Of a stretch of 22,181 nt of DNA, positions 11,988-22,181 are shown piece after piece. The position numbers and the translations under genes were made by a program. Origin of the DNA: a virus; the IMG/VR virus record IMGVR_UViG_3300030380_003904, positions 1 through 22,181 of that record. One strand, 5' to 3'. The stretch's first letter is position 1. Each line of letters opens with the position of its first letter. A model generated the notes under the pieces. The model ran no database searches. It saw only the letters and a program-made list of their open reading frames with translations, and was not told the DNA's origin.

Positions 11988-13535
11988 ATGGCATTACTAG
12001 ACGGACAAACACACAAAGAGTATTACGAAGGTAACAATTTAGGTAGTTATCAATTTGTTTCTTTACAAGACGTTATAGCTCAGTTTATGGCTATATATGT
12101 TGGTGAAGAAAAAATAATAAACAAAGTTGGTAGAACAGAGGTTTCGTTTCACGCTCAAAGAGCTTTAGCTGAGCTTTCGTTTGATACATTAAAATCTTTT
12201 AAATCACAAAGTATAGTTTTACCTCCTAGTCTTGTAATGAGTTTACCTCATGACTACGTTAACTACACTAAGCTTAGCTGGTGTGACGAAGCTGGTATTA
12301 AACATCCAATATATAAAACTAACGATACTTCTAATCCGTTTCAAGTTAATCAAGATGCTGACGGCGTATATCTATACGGCTCTTCTTTTAGCACAGAAGA
12401 TTTAGTTGAACTAATAGCTTTGAACAAGAGTAACTCGTGGAGTATTAGTGCTAAAGGTCTTGGTGGAAAGCGTGTTGGCGAAAATATATTAGGCTCAGGT
12501 TCTACTGCAGATTCTTTAACTATAGCACATCGCCCACAAAATAGAACTACAACAGTAGGCTCTTTTGTTACACAATGCTATAAAATAATAGATGTTACAG
12601 AGTTTGAACAGTTTACATTTTCTGCAAACGTTACAACAGTAGCTGCTTCTACGCAAACTGTTAGTACAGCAGAAGTTTATACAGATCTTAACGGTAACAC
12701 TGTAAACGGAGCAACAGGTACTTTTAATACTCCGCTAACTACTGTTAGAGTAGGTTTGAGTTCTGAGCCACCGAGTAATATTCTTTTTACCCATCCGCTA
12801 GGAGCAGATCCTGCTTCGCCAAACTTATCGCCAGATATTTTTGACATAGGTTATATAGAGTGGACTGGAGGTATTGATAACGGCTTAAAAACTTCAGACA
12901 TTGTAGACTTATCAGACTACGAAGGAGACGTATATCTTTCAGTAATAGGCATAGCGCTTTGGGAAGAAAATGACGCTGAAGCAGCAAGAGCTGTTAGTAC
13001 AATTTTAGAAGTTCAATCTACCGTATCTGGTATAACATTAGATTTATACCAACAGCCAAATAAGCTATCAGCTCCAATTGATTCATCAACTTGGAATAAA
13101 TATAAAGCTGTAGAACCTGCTGAGAATAATAACGACGATTATGCTAACGATGATTATCAGCGTGTGCCTGATGAAAGATACGGCTTAGATCCAGCGTTCG
13201 CACAAACTAATGGCTCTTTTTATATTGACGATAGACTAGGTAGAATACATTTTAGTTCTAATATTTCTGGAAAAACTGTGATATTAGATTACATAAGTGA
13301 TAGTTTAGGTACTGAAGCTGAAATGCAAATACACAAGTTAGCTGAAGAAGCTATGTACAAAAGCATAACATACGGTGTTTTATCTGTTAAAAGTAATATA
13401 CCAGAATATATTGTTATGAGAGCTCGTAAAGAAAAAATAGCAGCAACTAGAAAAGCTAAGCTTAGACTATCAAATGTTAAGATAGAAGATATTACTCAAA
13501 TACTTAGAGGAAAGTCTAAGCATATAAAGCACTAA
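11988..13535 (+). CDS. Putative tail ring/adaptor protein with beta-sandwich insertion
   Basis: The 515-residue protein has an N-terminal helical part (DVIAQFMAIYVGEEKIINKV, about residues 23-42; HAQRALAELSFDT, 54-66) and the block SLPHDYVNYTKLSW (about 87-100). The C-terminal third reads RYGLDPAFAQTNGSFYIDDR, then HFSSNISGKTVILDYISDSLG, then helices ending RKAKLRLSNVKIEDITQILR. These blocks are familiar from structural proteins upstream of the nozzle gene in marine podoviruses and probably form a ring between portal adaptor and nozzle. Residues about 146-360 are different in character: T-, S- and V-rich beta strands with FEQFTFSANVTT and DIGYIEWTGG, like an inserted beta sandwich of galactose-binding type. 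The ring role is inferred from position and recall. The insertion is read from the sequence and could be shown by aligning homologues. Confidence 0.6.
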   Translation: MALLDGQTHKEYYEGNNLGSYQFVSLQDVIAQFMAIYVGEEKIINKVGRTEVSFHAQRALAELSFDTLKSFKSQSIVLPPSLVMSLPHDYVNYTKLSWCDEAGIKHPIYKTNDTSNPFQVNQDADGVYLYGSSFSTEDLVELIALNKSNSWSISAKGLGGKRVGENILGSGSTADSLTIAHRPQNRTTTVGSFVTQCYKIIDVTEFEQFTFSANVTTVAASTQTVSTAEVYTDLNGNTVNGATGTFNTPLTTVRVGLSSEPPSNILFTHPLGADPASPNLSPDIFDIGYIEWTGGIDNGLKTSDIVDLSDYEGDVYLSVIGIALWEENDAEAARAVSTILEVQSTVSGITLDLYQQPNKLSAPIDSSTWNKYKAVEPAENNNDDYANDDYQRVPDERYGLDPAFAQTNGSFYIDDRLGRIHFSSNISGKTVILDYISDSLGTEAEMQIHKLAEEAMYKSITYGVLSVKSNIPEYIVMRARKEKIAATRKAKLRLSNVKIEDITQILRGKSKHIKH

Positions 13536-13538
13536 TTT

Positions 13539-16500
13539 ATGGCAGAGATTACTAACAATTTTCTTCAAGGTAAAATGAATAAAGACCTTGATGAGAGAAT
13601 TTTACCTAAAGGACAATATAGAGATGCGATGAATATACAGATCACTACGTCTGATGGTTCAGATGTTGGTAGTGCTCAAAGTATTCTTGGAACTAAAGCT
13701 CTGTCTGCTATAGGCGCTTTTGATTCTACATCAGTTTGTATAGGTAGTATTGAAGATGTTTTAACAGACTGCATATATTATTTTGTTAGATCTAGCACTA
13801 GAGACTTTATAGCTAAGTACGATGTTAAAGCTGACTATGCTACTTTCGTAGCTGTAGATCTAAGCAGAACGCCTAGCTTAGAAGATAGTGATGGAAACGA
13901 AATTACTGTAGATCCTTTTTTAAAATTTACTGGAAAGCAAATAACAGCTATAAATATTATAGATAATTATTTGTTTTGGACTGACGGCGATAACGAGCCT
14001 AAAAAAATAGATTTATCTAAAAATTATTCAGGTAAACAAAATGAACCTCAAAACAACAGTGTTCACTCAAGATTTTATCTTGATGGCGTAAACTACGGGT
14101 ACTTAAAAGAAGAGCATTTAACTGTTATAAAGAAAAAACCTCTTAGAGCTCCTCAAATAAAAGTAATCTCTTCTAAAGGTAACAAAAAGGCTTCTATATT
14201 TGAAAGACAAATACCTAGATTTTGTGTTAGGTATAAGTACGAAGATAATCAATTATCTGCTTTTAGCCCGTTTACTCAGCCAGTATTTAACGCGGAGTAC
14301 ATTGACGATTACAATAGCTACAACTTCTACGATACGTCGGAGTCGTACAATACAGCTATGTTAAACTATATTAGATCAATAGAAGTTTATGGGTTTGTAG
14401 ATGCTAGCACGCCTGACGACGTTGTTGAAGTAGAAATACTTTACAAAACAGAAGACTCTAATGTAGTATACTCTATAGCTAAGATAAAAAAAACAGATCC
14501 AAGTTGGAGTGCTACAGGAAGTTATATAGGTGATTTAGGTTTTAATGAACCAGGTAATTATCTTAATACTTCAGGAAGCTATACTATAAAAAGTGAAAAT
14601 GTTTTTACAGCAATAGCAGAAGAGCAATTACTAAGGCCTTTTGACAACGTTCCTAAAAAAGCTTTAGCACAAGAGGTTGTTGGTAACAGAATAGTTTATG
14701 GTAACTACACGCAGAACTACGACGTAGACTCTGTTGACATAGACGCTATGGCATGGCCATACTTTTATGATGAACAAGATAAGCCTATTAGATCATTAAA
14801 GTCAGATAGAAGTTATCAAGTAGGAGTATTATTTGGTGATACTTACGGAAGAGAAACTCCTGTATTTACTTCTGAGAAAGGCGGTTTTAGTACGCTTCAA
14901 AATTATCCTAGCGAAGTAAGCTGGAAAGCTAGTGTAAAAATAAATTCTGATATTCCGCCTTGGGCTCAATACTATAAGTTTTATATAAAAGAATCTTCAG
15001 GCCAATACTATAATTTATTAAATCAAAGGGTTTATATTCCGTTTGCACATAGTCAATTTGAAAACGAAGAAGATCATGTATACCTTTCTTTTCCATCAAA
15101 AGATAGATCTAAAATATCTGTTGATGACTACATTGTTTTAAAAACAGTATTACTAGAGCCTACGCCTTTTAGAGTAAGTGAAGACAATAAATATAAAGTA
15201 TTAGACGTAAGCAACGAAGCTCCTGAAGCAATATCATATAAGTTTTACGATCTTGGATCAGTTACAAATAATGCTAGTGATTTTTTAACTGATACTGATA
15301 ATGGAATTTTTACTGCAGACGTGTCAAACGGCAGCTTGCAGCGTATAGATCAACAAACTGATACTATAATAATTAATAAAACTGCTTGGCAGGCTATTGA
15401 TACTGATGGCGCTGCTTTAACAAACAGCGAAGGTGGAGGAACAGAGTCATCTAATAAAATAGAAAATCTTTATATATCATGGTCTTTAGGTGGCTTACAA
15501 TCTAAAAGATATAAGGTCACAAACATAAGAGTTCAAGATACAGAATATATCATTAGATTAAGTGAAACAATACAACTGCAAGACGCTTTAATAGCTAACA
15601 AAGATGGATTAGATAATGATGGAGCTTTAGCGACTACTGCAAATATGCCTGACAAGCTTAACTTTAAAGTACAAAGAAAAGATAGATATTCAGATGAAAA
15701 CTTTTCTGGACACTTCTTTGTTAAAATAGCTGCAGATGATTTAATAAAAACTCAGCTTATAAACGAGCCTTCACAGTTAGAAGCTACAAACAAAATATTG
15801 CACGCTGAAAAAGTTTACTTATGGTTAGATGAAGCTGACGCTAGCGCTAGTACTACAAAAAATAGCAATGTTCAATACTATGACGAAATTACTACTTATT
15901 ACTATAACAATACTTCAGCAACTCCAGACGACATACACGAGCAAGGTAGTTTAACAAACACTAAGATAGCATGGGACGCTCTTTTAAACGAGTCTTTAGG
16001 TTTTGGTGGAGGGCAAGGTAAGTTTTTTATTGATGGTATGTATATGGCTGCATCTAATCCTTCAGATACTTTATACGCTAGAGAGTCAGGTCAAGGTTGG
16101 GTAGGTAGTCCTATTATTCGTTATCCAAAGCTAGTGTGGACTGCGGCAACGCCTAATTTATCTGCAGATCTTCCAAACTCTGGAATATCTTACAATAATA
16201 CTGATATTAATAATTACGAAACTTCTTACGGTATTATCACCGCTTCTAACTTAGCAGAAACAGCTGATTGGGGTTGGATGCTAGAAAATTACAACGAATA
16301 TGGAACAGCTGAATACGACACTACAGCTATGGACGCCTCTACTGATGTAGCTTTTACCGTAGACGCTGACAATGAAGTCGACTGGTACGTTAACGGTATT
16401 GAGCCTATTATACAAGCTAGCACTGATTACTACGTTAATCCTATTAGCGGCCCAGCAGACGGTAACGGTGGAAGAGCGTGGTCTAATAGCACAATATACG

Positions 16501-19500
16501 GAAGTGATAGAATTAATGATTTAGCAAGCGATTATGATCTTAGTGGATATTATATGCATGTTTCATTTCTAGGGCCTGGTGTAGATTTATTTACAAGAGA
16601 AGGTAGTTATGATCCAAATATTCCATTTAGAGGACCTAATTGTTTAGGTAAACATCTTCAAGGTATATGGGGCGGTGGCGCTTTTAATCACGGTACTGGA
16701 ACAGGTTTTGTAGAAATGGAAACACATTGGTATGATGTTAATCAAGGCGGTACGGCTGGGCACTATTTAGCTCCAGCACCAGGTGTTGAAGAGTTTTCTA
16801 ATAACGGCAACGTGCAGTATAGCTTTTTACGCGGATATGATCCAGATTATCAAACTCAACACGAAAGACAGTTTGATCCTACTTATGGAGCTGAAGACGT
16901 GCAGGCTGTACAAGAAATGGTTAGTAATTTAGTTTCCGGTAAAAAGTTTAGATTTTCAGAAGACACTAACGAAGAAATATATACTATATTAGGCGTTAAA
17001 GTAAAGCACGTGTACAATCATACACCATGGCGTATGCGTAAAGTGTGGAATGCCGGTACTTCAACTTACGTTAATGGCGGTGACAGTGTAGAAGAGGCTG
17101 TAATCGCTTGGGCTGAAGCCGGTACGGCTACAAACAACTCGCAATTTACTAGCGTATTAGACAAGTTAGAAGCTTTTGGAGCTAAATCTAATAGACGTAT
17201 AGTTTACGCTTTAAAACTAGATAAAAATCCTCAAGATAGTGCTTTTAAGCCTTTAAGTCAAGGCACTACTAGTTTTGATGTTAATAGTAGCAACAGTTTA
17301 TTTGAGTTTGTAGCAGAAAGCGCTAAATCGTTCTCTAGTGATGCTACTACTAATAAAGCTCTATTTGAAACAGAACCTGAAAAATCAGCTGACTTAGATA
17401 TTTACTACGAAATTAGCGATGCCATACCTGTAGAAATAACACAAGAAAATAAAGATATTATATTTCCAATAGGGTCTAGAGTAGAGATATTAAACTTTAA
17501 CAAAGCTGTTGATGGAATTCAATTGCCTAAAGAAAGGTATATTCGTCAAGCTTACTGGAATACATCAACAGAAGATTTAAGTATTGTTGTTAATGGACTA
17601 GATGATGAAGATCGTGGGTTTAATTATTACGATCCGTCTGACGGAACTACAGAGCTAGATTATGAAAGTAAAATTTTAGCTATAACTAGAGCTGATGGCA
17701 GTGTTGTTCATGTTGAGATAACACAAGCAAACGCAAGTGGCGATTATTATATCACAGGAGGTGGTAAAGGTAATTACGGTTATAGATTAAGTTTTAAAGT
17801 AAAACTTTCACCATCACTGCCTTATTACTCAAATTTTTACAATGTATTTGCTTTTAATAATGGTGTTGAGTCTAACACTGTTAGAGATGATTTTAACGGA
17901 GTTTCTATAAGAACAGGTGCTAGAGCATCTACAACGTTAGATGAACCTTATAGAGAAGAAATAAGAGAACACGGTTTAATATTCTCTGGGCTATATAATT
18001 CTAACACTGGTGTTAATAATTTAAATCAGTTTATACAAGCTCAAAAGATAACTAAAGACTTAAATCCTACGTACGGTAGTATACAAAAGTTATTTCAAAG
18101 ACAAACTAACTTAGTAGTGTTCTGTGAAGACAGAGTTGTAAAAGTTCTTAGTAATAAAGACGCTGTATTTAACGCTGACGGTAATCCTCAACTAGTTGCT
18201 AACGAAAGAGTGCTTGGTCAAGTCACTCCATTTGTAGGTGAGTTTGGTATATCTAAAAATCCTGAGTCTTTTGCTAGCGAATCATATAGAGCTTACTTTA
18301 CAGACAAGCAAAGACGATCTGTGCTAAGATTATCAATGGACGGTTTAACTCCAATATCAGACGCTGGTATGAAAGACTGGTTTGGTGATAATTTAGCAGA
18401 TGACAATATTATGTGCTTAGGGACGTACGATGAAGATAAGCAAGAGTATAATTTAACTATAAGAGAAGGTTATACTGAAAACATAATTGCTAACGATTCT
18501 TTTGATGATGGTGTAGAACTAGTTGAAACACTTCTTGGTGAAGAATTACTTAACAATGCTTTTACTGGTGGCGCAGACTTTACTGAAGTTGACATTGCTG
18601 CTACAAACTTTTATGAAACAACAAATAAAACTCGTGTGCCAAACGATGAAGCTGAAAGTGTTTACCACGTGCAAGCTGTAACTGAAAACGACACTATTAC
18701 AGCTGGAAATTGGTATATGGTAGAGGTAGATGCTTCTAATATATCAGATATTTATGATAACTATGGTATTATAGTTGATAATGTATTTTTAGAATACAAC
18801 TACGGTACAGATATATCAGCTGATGATACGAATGATAACCCTAACAATCTTTTTGGTAAAAATCACACTGACCCTGAGTTTAGAGAGCTTTTACCTTATC
18901 ATTTTGGTCAAATATCTGGCGCAGGAACAATAGGTGATGATTTGAGACTAATGCCTGCTACTAGATACTGGGACGGATCTAATACGCCTATACTACTAGC
19001 TATATTTGAAGCTGAGCAAGATCTTCCTACATTTAAGCTGCGCAGTTGGACTAGTGAAGATGAGAATCCTGGATTTACTTTAGACAAAATTAGGCTATAC
19101 AACATAACAGATATACCTACTATGTCAGAGCCTAGTCAGTGGGAAATAAAAAACGAAAACTATACTATGCCCCACGCGGCTTACAAATACATAGAACAGT
19201 TTTATGTTGACGATGAGTATACTACAACTGAAAGAGCTAGACCGATGGTGTATTTTAAAAATAACGCGGTTCAATTTAACACTAAAAATCCAGAGTATCT
19301 TGTTGCAAACCTTTATAATGGTAACGACGCTGGTGACACTGGCGCACCGCCTGCGGCGTTTAATCCTGACGCAGATTATTTACAGCCTACTTATGCTGGA
19401 TATAATTTGTCTTTCACTGTTGGAAATAATGTAGACACAGGATCTATAAGTGGAACTTTAAACGTTAGAGTTGAAGTGCCAACTGACTCAGGACCTGCTG

Positions 19501-20741
19501 GATTTATAGCTAACATTACTGAAGCTGGAGATTACGTTATAAATTATAATACTACACCTGATTATACGCCAACCATAGTTTCTCAGCCAGATAGTTCAAG
19601 CATTGGAGCGGAAGATCCGGCTGCTACAACTGGCGCGTACTTTTTAAGGTTTTCTCAAACAGGCAACAACACTTTTGAAGGCTCTGTAAGTAATATATCA
19701 ATAAAAGATGCTACATCTCTATTTACTGGCGGTGGAGCAGATAGCTGGACTTTTGAAAGCGAAAACAACAGCAATGAAAACGAGCAAAACGATGCATATT
19801 GGGATAGTGGATCTTTAGTTTTTGACAATATAAACCCAACTTCAACGTCTGCCGTTTATGCTAGACAAAACTTAGGTAATTTAAGAACTGGTACTAGATA
19901 TAATCTTTCGTTTGATTATAGTAACGGTAGCGCTGGAACTTCTTTTTGTAGAATATATTACTTCAACTCTCAAGGAAAAGGCTTCCATTACAGAACTTTA
20001 TATCCTACTCAAGCGCAGACTGGTGTTAGTCATTTTAATGAATACTTTACTATAGACGACACATTTACTGCTGTAACAGGTCAAGGCGTAAGTGTGTACT
20101 ATAATGCTTTAGTTTTTTACTTTGGAGCTTTTAGTAGTCACAACGATGGAGCTAGTTTAACTATAGATAATATTTCTATGATACCTGTAGTAGATGAAGA
20201 TTTTAAACCAAAGACGCTAAGCTACAGTGAACAAGCTAAAGGTTGGATAAGTTTTAAATCATTTATTCCAGAGAGCGGGGTAAGTTTAGGTGGAGATTAT
20301 TACACATTTAATAACGGAGCAATATACAAACACCACGAACAAGAAACTAATAACAATGTTTTTTACGATCAAGCAAGAGTAAATTCTTTTATTGATTTTA
20401 TATTTAACGACTCTACGCCTGTAGTAAAAGATTTTAAAACATTATCCTACGAAGGTAGTGCAGGTAAAAGAAACGGTTATGTTGAGCATGTTGGTGGTGC
20501 TACTGATGCAAACTACGACAACTTAAATAGTAGTGATGGTTGGTTTGTTTCAAATATAGTTACTGACTTGCAAAAAGGATCTATACCAGAATTTATTAAA
20601 AAAGAAGGTAAATACTATAACTATATAAGAGGAGGTTCTTTTGATAATACAAACTCAGATGATATAGGAAGTTTAAACGTACAAGGCTTAGGTGTTATCG
20701 CTAAAGTTGAGTACGATGAAATTATTGTAGACGAAGAATAA
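13539..20741 (+). CDS. Giant tail nozzle/muzzle-like protein with C-terminal glycan-binding-like modules
   Basis: The 2400-residue protein begins NNFLQGKMNKDLDERILPKG (residues 5-24), then SDGSDVGSAQSILG, a start I associate with large tail-tube/nozzle proteins of marine podoviruses (the place of T7 gp12, P22 gp10 or the crAss-like muzzle). Propeller-like strands with aromatic and glycine turns recur through the protein. One block near residues 1000-1090 is rich in G, H, W and N (GKHLQGIWGGGAFNHGTGTG). Conserved-looking structural motifs follow: KKFRFSEDTNEEIYTILGV, NHTPWRMRKVW, NRRIVYALKLDKNPQD, and later GQVTPFVGEFGISKNPESFA and YFTDKQRRSVLRLSMDG. The propeller appears to be interrupted at about residue 1645 and to resume at TLSYSEQAKGWISFKSFIPE (2226). 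The roughly 580 residues between form three beta-sandwich modules (about 1652-1860, 1866-2055 and 2069-2216) ending in strands such as LTIDNISMIPV. Those modules probably bind host glycans. Confidence 0.75.
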   Translation: MAEITNNFLQGKMNKDLDERILPKGQYRDAMNIQITTSDGSDVGSAQSILGTKALSAIGAFDSTSVCIGSIEDVLTDCIYYFVRSSTRDFIAKYDVKADYATFVAVDLSRTPSLEDSDGNEITVDPFLKFTGKQITAINIIDNYLFWTDGDNEPKKIDLSKNYSGKQNEPQNNSVHSRFYLDGVNYGYLKEEHLTVIKKKPLRAPQIKVISSKGNKKASIFERQIPRFCVRYKYEDNQLSAFSPFTQPVFNAEYIDDYNSYNFYDTSESYNTAMLNYIRSIEVYGFVDASTPDDVVEVEILYKTEDSNVVYSIAKIKKTDPSWSATGSYIGDLGFNEPGNYLNTSGSYTIKSENVFTAIAEEQLLRPFDNVPKKALAQEVVGNRIVYGNYTQNYDVDSVDIDAMAWPYFYDEQDKPIRSLKSDRSYQVGVLFGDTYGRETPVFTSEKGGFSTLQNYPSEVSWKASVKINSDIPPWAQYYKFYIKESSGQYYNLLNQRVYIPFAHSQFENEEDHVYLSFPSKDRSKISVDDYIVLKTVLLEPTPFRVSEDNKYKVLDVSNEAPEAISYKFYDLGSVTNNASDFLTDTDNGIFTADVSNGSLQRIDQQTDTIIINKTAWQAIDTDGAALTNSEGGGTESSNKIENLYISWSLGGLQSKRYKVTNIRVQDTEYIIRLSETIQLQDALIANKDGLDNDGALATTANMPDKLNFKVQRKDRYSDENFSGHFFVKIAADDLIKTQLINEPSQLEATNKILHAEKVYLWLDEADASASTTKNSNVQYYDEITTYYYNNTSATPDDIHEQGSLTNTKIAWDALLNESLGFGGGQGKFFIDGMYMAASNPSDTLYARESGQGWVGSPIIRYPKLVWTAATPNLSADLPNSGISYNNTDINNYETSYGIITASNLAETADWGWMLENYNEYGTAEYDTTAMDASTDVAFTVDADNEVDWYVNGIEPIIQASTDYYVNPISGPADGNGGRAWSNSTIYGSDRINDLASDYDLSGYYMHVSFLGPGVDLFTREGSYDPNIPFRGPNCLGKHLQGIWGGGAFNHGTGTGFVEMETHWYDVNQGGTAGHYLAPAPGVEEFSNNGNVQYSFLRGYDPDYQTQHERQFDPTYGAEDVQAVQEMVSNLVSGKKFRFSEDTNEEIYTILGVKVKHVYNHTPWRMRKVWNAGTSTYVNGGDSVEEAVIAWAEAGTATNNSQFTSVLDKLEAFGAKSNRRIVYALKLDKNPQDSAFKPLSQGTTSFDVNSSNSLFEFVAESAKSFSSDATTNKALFETEPEKSADLDIYYEISDAIPVEITQENKDIIFPIGSRVEILNFNKAVDGIQLPKERYIRQAYWNTSTEDLSIVVNGLDDEDRGFNYYDPSDGTTELDYESKILAITRADGSVVHVEITQANASGDYYITGGGKGNYGYRLSFKVKLSPSLPYYSNFYNVFAFNNGVESNTVRDDFNGVSIRTGARASTTLDEPYREEIREHGLIFSGLYNSNTGVNNLNQFIQAQKITKDLNPTYGSIQKLFQRQTNLVVFCEDRVVKVLSNKDAVFNADGNPQLVANERVLGQVTPFVGEFGISKNPESFASESYRAYFTDKQRRSVLRLSMDGLTPISDAGMKDWFGDNLADDNIMCLGTYDEDKQEYNLTIREGYTENIIANDSFDDGVELVETLLGEELLNNAFTGGADFTEVDIAATNFYETTNKTRVPNDEAESVYHVQAVTENDTITAGNWYMVEVDASNISDIYDNYGIIVDNVFLEYNYGTDISADDTNDNPNNLFGKNHTDPEFRELLPYHFGQISGAGTIGDDLRLMPATRYWDGSNTPILLAIFEAEQDLPTFKLRSWTSEDENPGFTLDKIRLYNITDIPTMSEPSQWEIKNENYTMPHAAYKYIEQFYVDDEYTTTERARPMVYFKNNAVQFNTKNPEYLVANLYNGNDAGDTGAPPAAFNPDADYLQPTYAGYNLSFTVGNNVDTGSISGTLNVRVEVPTDSGPAGFIANITEAGDYVINYNTTPDYTPTIVSQPDSSSIGAEDPAATTGAYFLRFSQTGNNTFEGSVSNISIKDATSLFTGGGADSWTFESENNSNENEQNDAYWDSGSLVFDNINPTSTSAVYARQNLGNLRTGTRYNLSFDYSNGSAGTSFCRIYYFNSQGKGFHYRTLYPTQAQTGVSHFNEYFTIDDTFTAVTGQGVSVYYNALVFYFGAFSSHNDGASLTIDNISMIPVVDEDFKPKTLSYSEQAKGWISFKSFIPESGVSLGGDYYTFNNGAIYKHHEQETNNNVFYDQARVNSFIDFIFNDSTPVVKDFKTLSYEGSAGKRNGYVEHVGGATDANYDNLNSSDGWFVSNIVTDLQKGSIPEFIKKEGKYYNYIRGGSFDNTNSDDIGSLNVQGLGVIAKVEYDEIIVDEE
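18480..20213 (+). other. Three tandem carbohydrate-binding-like beta sandwiches inside the nozzle gene
   Basis: This stretch encodes nozzle residues about 1648-2225. Each module ends with the strand typical of galactose-binding/CBM jelly rolls: FTLDKIRLYNITD (module 1), FEGSVSNISIKDAT (module 2) and LTIDNISMIPV (module 3). Earlier strands such as YNLSFDYSNGSAG (module 3) and YNLSFTVGNN (module 2) match the same pattern. The flanks read as a continuous propeller blade when the insert is removed. The domain call is by pattern and is not confirmed by any search. Confidence 0.5.
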
Positions 20742-21968
20742 ATGGCAAATATAAATAGCATATCAATATTAACAACTGATCTAAACGCTGCTGGCGAAAA
20801 TAGATCTTTGTCTATACAAGGTGAAGTTGGCGCTCAAGTAACAATACAAGTTGTTAGTAGTACTAATAAATTTTACAACTTTGTTACAAGTAGTTTTGAA
20901 TCTAGCTTTAGTACTAAAAGCAAGCTAGAAGTTACGTTAACAAGTGATAATTTTTCAAAGCTTATACACTTTCCAGCTGGCAGTTCTGTAAAGTATTTTG
21001 TTATTGTAAGCCCAAAGCCTTATACAGATACTGTAATTTCTGGTGGAGTTTATGTTGAAGAAATAGGATCTATATCTGACTCTATAATAACGTTTGCCCT
21101 GATTACAGATAATACAGCTAAATATGCTTCTGATCCGGTAATAGCTAACACCACAACTACAGGTTCACCTTCTACGTCAACTTCAAAAATAGTTAATATA
21201 TCAGGAACTATAAACAACGCTACTACAGACAGTAATAGTCAAGGTTTATTTGTTATAAACGGAGCAACTTTAAACAACAATAGTTTTCAGTTTGACACAA
21301 CTAAAACTATATCTAGTAATCCTTCTGGAGATGGTGTGGCTGGTGCTAGAGCTACACTTTCAGACGTAACAGATTTAGTTGTAGGTATGCGTTTAATTTT
21401 TCACAAAGGAACTACAGCGCCTTCTTCTACTACCGTTATACAAGCTATAGACACAGAGCTTAAACAAGTTGTATTTAGCACTAATGTTCCTTTTGAAGAT
21501 GGAGAAACTATGACGCTAAGAGCTATTGGTTTATCTTTAGCAGCTTCAGCTATAGGAGCTAGCATTACTTTAAATTCAAGCTCTATAGATCCAGGCACGC
21601 CAGAAATAACTACAAATGTTAGAAGTGGAGGATCTGGAACTACTATTAACGTAACTACAACGCAAGGAATATCTGGTGGAAGTAAAGCTGTGTTTACAGG
21701 TATAGGTGTTGATAATTCTAGCACAAACAATGTTAACGTAGTTACTCCAGATCCTAATGGAACTGACGGCGACGGTGTAATAACTTGTGATATTTCGCAG
21801 TCATTAACTGTAGGTACAAAGTTAACATTTACGGCTGGAAGCGGAAAAGAAACATTAACAACAGCAGCTACTTTCAATGCTCAGCTAACAGTAACTCAGT
21901 TTCCTCAGACTAATAAAACAATAAACATAAAAATTGACGATCTCATAACGCCAGGTACATTATCATGA
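20742..21968 (+). CDS. Beta-rich virion-type protein with internal repeats
   Basis: The 408-residue protein is very rich in S, T, N, G and I and poor in charged residues, with no signal peptide or membrane span. Residues 1-125 form one beta domain (VGAQVTIQVVSSTNKFYNFV). From about residue 190 onward a loosely repeated unit appears: SGDGVAGARATLSDVTDLVVG followed by MRLIFHKG (about 200-223), then TTINVTTTQGISGGSKAVFTG, then DGDGVITCDISQSLTVGTKL followed by TFTAG. Composition and position directly after the nozzle (stop TAA and start ATG abut) suggest a tail or capsid surface protein. I do not recognise a family. Its stop overlaps the next ATG (ATGA), so the downstream gene is translationally coupled. 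A fibre or decoration protein is the likeliest role, with low certainty. Confidence 0.6.
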   Translation: MANINSISILTTDLNAAGENRSLSIQGEVGAQVTIQVVSSTNKFYNFVTSSFESSFSTKSKLEVTLTSDNFSKLIHFPAGSSVKYFVIVSPKPYTDTVISGGVYVEEIGSISDSIITFALITDNTAKYASDPVIANTTTTGSPSTSTSKIVNISGTINNATTDSNSQGLFVINGATLNNNSFQFDTTKTISSNPSGDGVAGARATLSDVTDLVVGMRLIFHKGTTAPSSTTVIQAIDTELKQVVFSTNVPFEDGETMTLRAIGLSLAASAIGASITLNSSSIDPGTPEITTNVRSGGSGTTINVTTTQGISGGSKAVFTGIGVDNSSTNNVNVVTPDPNGTDGDGVITCDISQSLTVGTKLTFTAGSGKETLTTAATFNAQLTVTQFPQTNKTINIKIDDLITPGTLS

Positions 21969-22181
21969 TAATTGAATTAAACGAAAATATAAAGATAAAT
22001 GATTCGCTTCAAGTAGGTGATATATTATATTATGCGCCGCTAAATGGTGCAGGTCCAATATCTAATAGCTTAAATGATCCTATAATAATCGGAGAGGTAA
22101 CTAGCATTAGTGGATCAACAATAACTACAGTTGAAACTCCAGCAACACCTCAAGAAGGTGATTTTTTAATGTTTGTAAAAA
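21965..22181 (+). CDS. Small beta-barrel structural-type protein, 3' end outside window
   Basis: The ATG overlaps the preceding TGA by four bases (ATGA). The frame stays open to the window edge, giving 72 visible residues: MIIELNENIKINDSLQVGDI, then LYYAPLNG, later IIIGEVTSISGSTITTVETP and GDFLMFVK. The pattern SLQVGDILYY ... GEVTSISGSTITT ... GDFLMF describes a small beta barrel, with polar turns and a strand carrying the VGD motif. Similar small proteins occur beside tail genes of marine phages in my recollection, but no function is known to me. The coupling to the 408-residue gene suggests they act in the same structure. Confidence 0.65.
   Translation, partial: MIIELNENIKINDSLQVGDILYYAPLNGAGPISNSLNDPIIIGEVTSISGSTITTVETPATPQEGDFLMFVK

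Follow-up and report, generated by a model that had tools for sequence, protein, structure and literature searches.

The largest protein encoded in this viral DNA (22,181 nucleotides, hereafter the window) is a crassvirus-type muzzle, a nozzle homologue, and one beta-hairpin of its C-terminal propeller is interrupted by 583 residues. The interruption is genuine and varies between relatives; it does not belong to the core of the protein. We consider it probable that the insert is an adhesin array of CBM-like modules on the muzzle tail tip of a marine podovirus related to the crassviruses, with glycan binding as its putative role. The gene, the hairpin and the insert occupy the following positions.

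13539 to 20741, + strand: gene of the muzzle/nozzle-type tail-tip protein P0001 (2400 aa), matching phrog_14478 (E 1.8e-114) and PF25729.
18423 to 18461, + strand: outgoing strand of the interrupted blade hairpin, residues 1629-1641 (TYDEDKQEYNLTI), from the flank profile end at 1641, the alignment and the hairpin of the insertless relative L070.
18462 to 20210, + strand: insert, residues 1642-2224 (583 aa), from flank profiles, spacing counts and alignment.
20211 to 20738, + strand: return strand, rest of the propeller and muzzle C-terminal domain, residues 2225-2400, from the flank profile, PF25729 and the gp44 alignment.

The virion genes run on the + strand of the window, and phrog_14478 is a virion structural family. 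When the whole of P0001 was searched, PF25729 (crAss_MUZ_C) scored 24.6 bits at residues 2272-2364, below the cut-off of 27; with residues 2225-2400 searched alone it scored 27.9 bits, above that cut-off. PF25731 (crassvirus muzzle) had no match in P0001 at E 0.1. Among the 24 scanned members of alignment A5, 11 match PF25731 at E 0.01 and 19 carry PF25729, five of the 24 having been cut before that domain. L070 matches PF25731 with 37.9 bits (cut-off 27), and its structural model (mean pLDDT 48) aligned with the crAss001 tail chain 7qol_P (Z 13.0, rmsd 6.6, 527 residues aligned) and the crAss001 muzzle assembly 7qok_A (Z 12.8, 505 residues aligned). After realignment of Foldseek's top 1000 by VIA, the crAss001 muzzle stands at the top of the ranking, followed among phage entries by a chain of the P22 tail complex (8u10_1, Z 10.1). 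No muzzle was present in the first 50 Foldseek rows for the same model. The viral fold search returned long multi-domain rows with low TM-scores, including one entry named crassvirus muzzle C-terminal domain (Virus NIOZ-UU157), and sequence searches of the PDB found no match. A profile built from 38 sequences without the insert (five from isolates) matched crAss001 gp44 at 48.8 bits over gp44 1053-1288 in a single-target search. The Pfam, fold and profile matches indicate that what the first-pass annotation had called a nozzle propeller is a crassvirus-type muzzle, of the same family and with the same C-terminal domain as phicrAss001 gp44 (PDB 7QOK/7QOL; PF25731, PF25729). Relatives are found in 87 phage records, named for Flavobacterium (68), Cellulophaga (15), Tenacibaculum (2), Maribacter (1) and a member of the Caudoviricetes without a host name (1). 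In the cultured-phage records that were looked at, the muzzle relatives are labelled just 'structural protein' or 'virion structural protein'.

The border sequences that the first-pass annotation had quoted are exact, with TYDEDKQEYNLTIRE at residues 1629-1643 and TLSYSEQAKGWISF at residues 2226-2239, and its three strand endings were located at 1845-1857, 2046-2059 and 2207-2217. Two flank profiles (residues 1500-1645 and 2224-2395) put the break between 1641 and 2225, so that the roughly 580 residues proposed between the propeller parts measure 583 (1642-2224). The proposed loop of the propeller is the beta-hairpin of a C-terminal propeller blade. Insertless relatives (14 sequences aligned) read ...YDDxKxxYNLTL, a short turn and then TxSFxExVKGWVSFKSF, and hence join directly across the site. 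Their profile also aligns to crAss001 gp44 straight across it; the equivalent there is a short turn at about K1198-H1200 (from the profile alignment), as against 583 residues in the window. The L070 model has strands at 940-947 and 952-959, in the middle of a four-strand run at 930-969 (pLDDT about 49-60). We looked for signs that the segment is an integral part of the propeller and found none, L070 being predicted as a plain hairpin at a pLDDT of only 56-60. Nor did all distant phages retain the segment: five isolates and crAss001 gp44 have only the short turn.

The spacing between the flanks is bimodal. In the 69 proteins with both flanks, a set that includes the window but no protein that a contig end truncates ahead of a flank or that is spread over separate ORFs, it measures 2-43 residues in 38, 127 or 153 residues in 2 and 582-1442 residues in 29. 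Among the 29 long-insert proteins are the window (L080), L001, which is nearly identical to it, and the near-duplicates L023/L005 and L004/L003. The smallest long inserts are those of the window, L001 and L002, and every other one has at least 936 residues. The IMG/VR scan kept the best 80 of at least 592 relatives, at 79 loci, and the shares given here should not be read as population frequencies. Of the 87 records from cultured phages, seven were checked. The site holds 5-21 residues in five of them (Calle_1, phi38:1, an elemo phage, Gundel_1 and Panino), and in the other two the gene is split there. A tree of 73 rows was made from the flanks only by a quick method with SH-aLRT support only, long isolate branches being flagged. 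When it is rooted on six isolate rows the insertless rows are basal. The 26 big-insert rows require at least 4 changes, 3 of them forced by starred branches, and these counts cannot separate gain from loss. Losses are likely nevertheless, since L008/L010 and L045 are insertless and nested in insert-bearing groups. A tblastn search with the insert alone against the phage collection found no match at E up to 1, and an IMG/VR scan with the third module alone returned 12 stretches with one relative, on the same contig as L001.

The insert divides into two short start motifs and three module bodies.

18480 to 18512, + strand: first CBM-like start motif, NIIANDSFDDG, residues 1648-1658, proposed first strand of the outer (third) module.
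18540 to 18581, + strand: second CBM-like start motif, EELLNNAFTGGADF, residues 1668-1681, proposed first strand of an inner module, tentatively assigned.
18582 to 19112, + strand: module 1 body, residues about 1682-1858, with predicted strands (block pLDDT 51-82) and 43% aa identity to L002.
19119 to 19718, + strand: module 2 body, residues about 1861-2060, with predicted strands (block pLDDT 42-88).
19719 to 20192, + strand: module 3 body, residues about 2061-2218, predicted CBM4/CBM16-like fold from VIA matches (block pLDDT 49-89).

The window model spans residues 1400-2400 with a mean pLDDT of 55. The propeller part lies below 50, and the insert is predicted with moderate confidence, its 10-residue blocks having means near 66 (module 1), 68 (module 2) and 73 (module 3). 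By VIA the model aligned with CBM4-2 (2Y64; Z 11.8, rmsd 3.4, 146 aligned) and CBM16-1 (3OEB; Z 11.0, rmsd 2.6, 120 aligned), with which the insert has a beta-sandwich fold in common at just 16-20% identity and without a family-level sequence match. The CBM-matched range is residues 1646-2217, and from its end point and length the matched body in the model is most likely the first start motif together with module 3. Foldseek rows for the window model include CBM4-2, CBM29, CBM16 and the Bacteroides SGBP-B, the top rows being long multi-domain proteins with low TM-scores. Phage adhesion proteins were matched by VIA as well, namely CBA120 tailspike 4 (Z 10.7), the Kp7 tail fibre (Z 10.3) and the phi812 baseplate (Z 10.8). 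Scores as good as those of many CBMs were also reached by meprin (11.7) and Eph receptors (up to 10.7), which indicates that the fold is common and is no proof of sugar binding. No Pfam CBM family was found in the insert of the window, and one of the 28 inserts scanned gave GalBD_like at E 0.009. The structure prediction and fold search that the first-pass annotation had proposed thus returned CBM4/CBM16 folds at Z about 11, over a range ending in module 3. Of its three jelly-roll modules, a CBM-like jelly-roll is supported by the model for at least one; the full set of three folds is borne out in part, at moderate pLDDT.

Among the modules, the module 2 profile matches inserts in most big-insert relatives. 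The module 3 profile matches the module 2 slot in several proteins, which partly belong to its own training set. A profile-profile comparison of modules 2 and 3 (15 against 25 rows) did not support homology between them, aligning only 17 boundary columns.

The ends of the fold matches suggest how the modules are arranged. Of the 50 alignments listed by VIA, 48 have their first aligned residue at model positions 244-250 (residues 1643-1649) and all 50 have their last at 817-825 (2216-2224), while the aligned residues number 141 or so, and at most 156, in the best rows. Start and end points so far apart with so few aligned residues fit an outer module made of the NIIANDSFDDG strand and the module 3 body; the basis here is the VIA end points and not a residue map. 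CBM4-type modules open with the motif hydrophobic-x-N-G-x-F and close with D-N/D-V/I, and these motifs were used for orientation. Two start motifs lie within the first 50 residues in 20 of 26 inserts. In a control with random interior stretches of 52 residues (500 draws), two motifs turned up in 1.9 of the 26 inserts on average and in 7 at most, with the caveat that the motif patterns are loose and were defined after some inserts had been seen. By eye, a separate ORF in L045 has a start-start-end-W-end pattern too. Judged from these sequence patterns, the two start motifs at the opening of the insert suggest nested modules.

The insert changes faster than its surroundings. It shares 49% aa identity with L002, as against 90.8% and 89.7% in the flanks (residues 1273-1641 and 2225-2400) and 84% over residues 1-740. 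A second region behaves in a similar way.

15759 to 17354, + strand: second fast-diverging region, residues 741-1272, with 59.5% aa identity to L002 and 38 gapped residues (rest of the core 84-91%).

From its place in the order of the protein, this region is probably the counterpart of the crass-domain region. The proteins of the window and L001 are identical over residues 1-2060, and all 7 aa differences between them fall in module 3. Estimates of dN/dS in the insert are below 1 (0.23-0.41 by module), with dS near or past saturation. The change in the insert is rapid or relaxed, and positive selection is not proven.

With iterated profiles, module 1 had seemed to occur in L019, in a different slot, and module 2 in L076. 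These placements were rejected as profile drift, because the L019 and L076 stretches used alone found only themselves and profiles trained on the insert slot lost both. With the latter profiles two weak leads were left, one in L051 (22 bits, E 1.4e-5) and one in the separate L045 ORF (16 bits, E 8e-4). The insertless L079, L050, L066 and L062 instead have 942-1426 residues past the muzzle C-terminal domain, in which Pfam found no CBM. The C-terminal extensions of nine insertless relatives, out of 28 extensions longer than 100 residues, and the L058 tail likewise had no CBM by Pfam; the families found in those extensions were one weak fn3 in L050 and Hint-type families in L066. The latter lie at the C-terminus of the muzzle extension (L066:13788-17084; PF07591 at E 1.2e-9, and PF01079), and these family matches suggest self-cleavage of the L066 tail protein.

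Other phages have altered the same hairpin. In Cellulophaga phages phi13:2 and phi19:3 (Pachyviridae, Baltivirus; gp120 and gp121) there is likewise extra sequence at exactly this hairpin, but unlike in the window the muzzle gene is cut there into two ORFs: the first gene runs past the hairpin and the next starts at the return strand. The phi13:2 gp120 continues 502 residues beyond the hairpin, with a bacterial Ig/cadherin-like domain (Big_9/cadherin-like, PF17963, E 2e-20) in the extra part. The module profiles gave no match of credible score in either phage. In metagenomic loci L041 and L058 the gene breaks at this hairpin as well, possibly through assembly errors. On the tree the four split rows need 3 changes, so that the two Baltivirus phages, L041 and L058 look like separate cases. 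The muzzle is divided in two ORFs elsewhere too, in L075, L071, L076 and L084; one example is the break about 946 residues into the protein of Maribacter phage Panino.

The genes on either side of the muzzle gene were also compared. The adjoining tail protein P0004 (window 11988-13535) has an insert of about 241 residues, at a point where 15 of 86 homologues, including all seven isolate loci, have 18-47 residues and the other 71 have 110-468. A small ORF at window 21965-22181 has a complete copy at L001:16403-16762. This copy matches phrog_18548 at 149-236 and muzzle residues 2224-2309 match it at 2-87; because the two match different parts of one family, the last domain of the ancestral muzzle C-part seems, on these matches, to have become a separate gene, with P0005 in between.

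We weighed an adhesin array against three other accounts of the segment. The modules might be structural decoration that stiffens or enlarges the tail tip or docks fibre and muzzle partners without glycan binding. The insert has no CBM sequence signature, and the insert that most P0004 homologues carry would make decoration perhaps general. However, most of the divergence falls within the insert and residues 741-1272, and the flips between presence and absence within the clade suit host interaction better, and we regard decoration as unlikely. A different account, which we find improbable, takes the inserts for enzymes, for instance polysaccharide-degrading domains, and not passive binders. 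Multi-domain glycoside hydrolases are among the fold matches, and outside L001 and L002 the relatives' inserts exceed that of the window, the only one covered by the model, by 350-860 residues. The hydrolase rows with ranges nevertheless cover one stretch of about 130-180 residues and not a whole enzyme, and no enzyme family was found in the 28 inserts at E 0.01.

The third account, an ancestral core domain lost in many lineages with no insertion at all, gains from the nested insertless rows (L008/L010, L045), which make losses likely. It is very improbable given that the five isolates, the basal insertless rows and crAss001 gp44 have no such segment and that the two flanks meet directly in a hairpin.

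An adhesin array on the muzzle remains the reading we favour. The first short strand of the outer module would lie at the start of the insert, with the other modules inserted in its first loop, and the array would have grown like nested dolls. The insert would be exposed on the surface. The crAss001 muzzle gp44 is a hexamer at the tail tip (PMC10172136), and by analogy each tip would carry six arms with about 18 modules. At adsorption these arms would attach to glycans on the host's capsule or outer membrane and would keep the muzzle against the surface while its gate opens, perhaps triggering the gate. In this way the opening through which the DNA leaves may also serve to grip the host. The same report suggests that the distal crass domain touches the cell surface (PMC10172136), and the insert would add to that contact. 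The first-pass annotation had set receptor binding in the nozzle in place of separate fibres; that contrast did not hold, and separate fibres likely exist as well. A tail-fibre-like ORF on the near-identical contig L001 (L091:2-2299, minus strand, at the contig end and cut by it) matches several families, among them phrog_8745 'tail fiber protein' (E 4.7e-14).

Related designs are known. Length variation of the muzzle by insertion is reported in the crass and IG2 regions, IG2 lying between 318 and 1021 (PMC10172136), and the insert of the window is at another site. For siphophages, two reports describe an 'evolved Dit', a core tail-tip protein with CBMs inserted in its loops, and CBMs in Tal (PMC7291167, PMC8540738). 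Like the window, these have CBM4-like modules in a core tail-tip loop and are thought to aid adsorption. The evolved Dits, as there described, carry one or two CBMs per Dit in the galectin or belt domains and belong to phages of Gram-positive hosts, whereas the window, from a relative of Bacteroidota phages, has its modules, apparently nested, in a muzzle propeller hairpin. The carrier being a muzzle and not a distal tail protein with belt and galectin domains, the insert works like an evolved Dit and is not a member of that class. The adsorption design is therefore less unusual than had been proposed, in that CBM insertion in siphophage tail tips and muzzle insertions elsewhere are known, and the muzzle hairpin site is the new part. 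In the open-access literature searched, no paper on CBM-like modules in a muzzle or nozzle propeller was recognised, and among the matches listed nothing relevant on CBMs inserted in one another was found. As far as that literature shows, the use of the muzzle propeller hairpin, the likely nesting and the gene fission at the same point are new.

A more general reading, possible but in our view doubtful, is that the hairpin is a standing adhesin port. It would hold CBM-like modules, each nested in the first loop of the last one, in some phages and Ig/cadherin-like domains in another lineage, and in several lineages the gene would be cut there, leaving one blade to be assembled from two polypeptides; binding at the port could couple glycan recognition to muzzle opening. 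Such a port would be in the same propeller that carries the gate.

The hairpin offers a natural insertion point with insertless, CBM-bearing, Ig-bearing and split-gene versions, through which host grip by crass-like phages and muzzle opening become testable. It also suggests that tail-tip parts annotated as structural can bear on adsorption.
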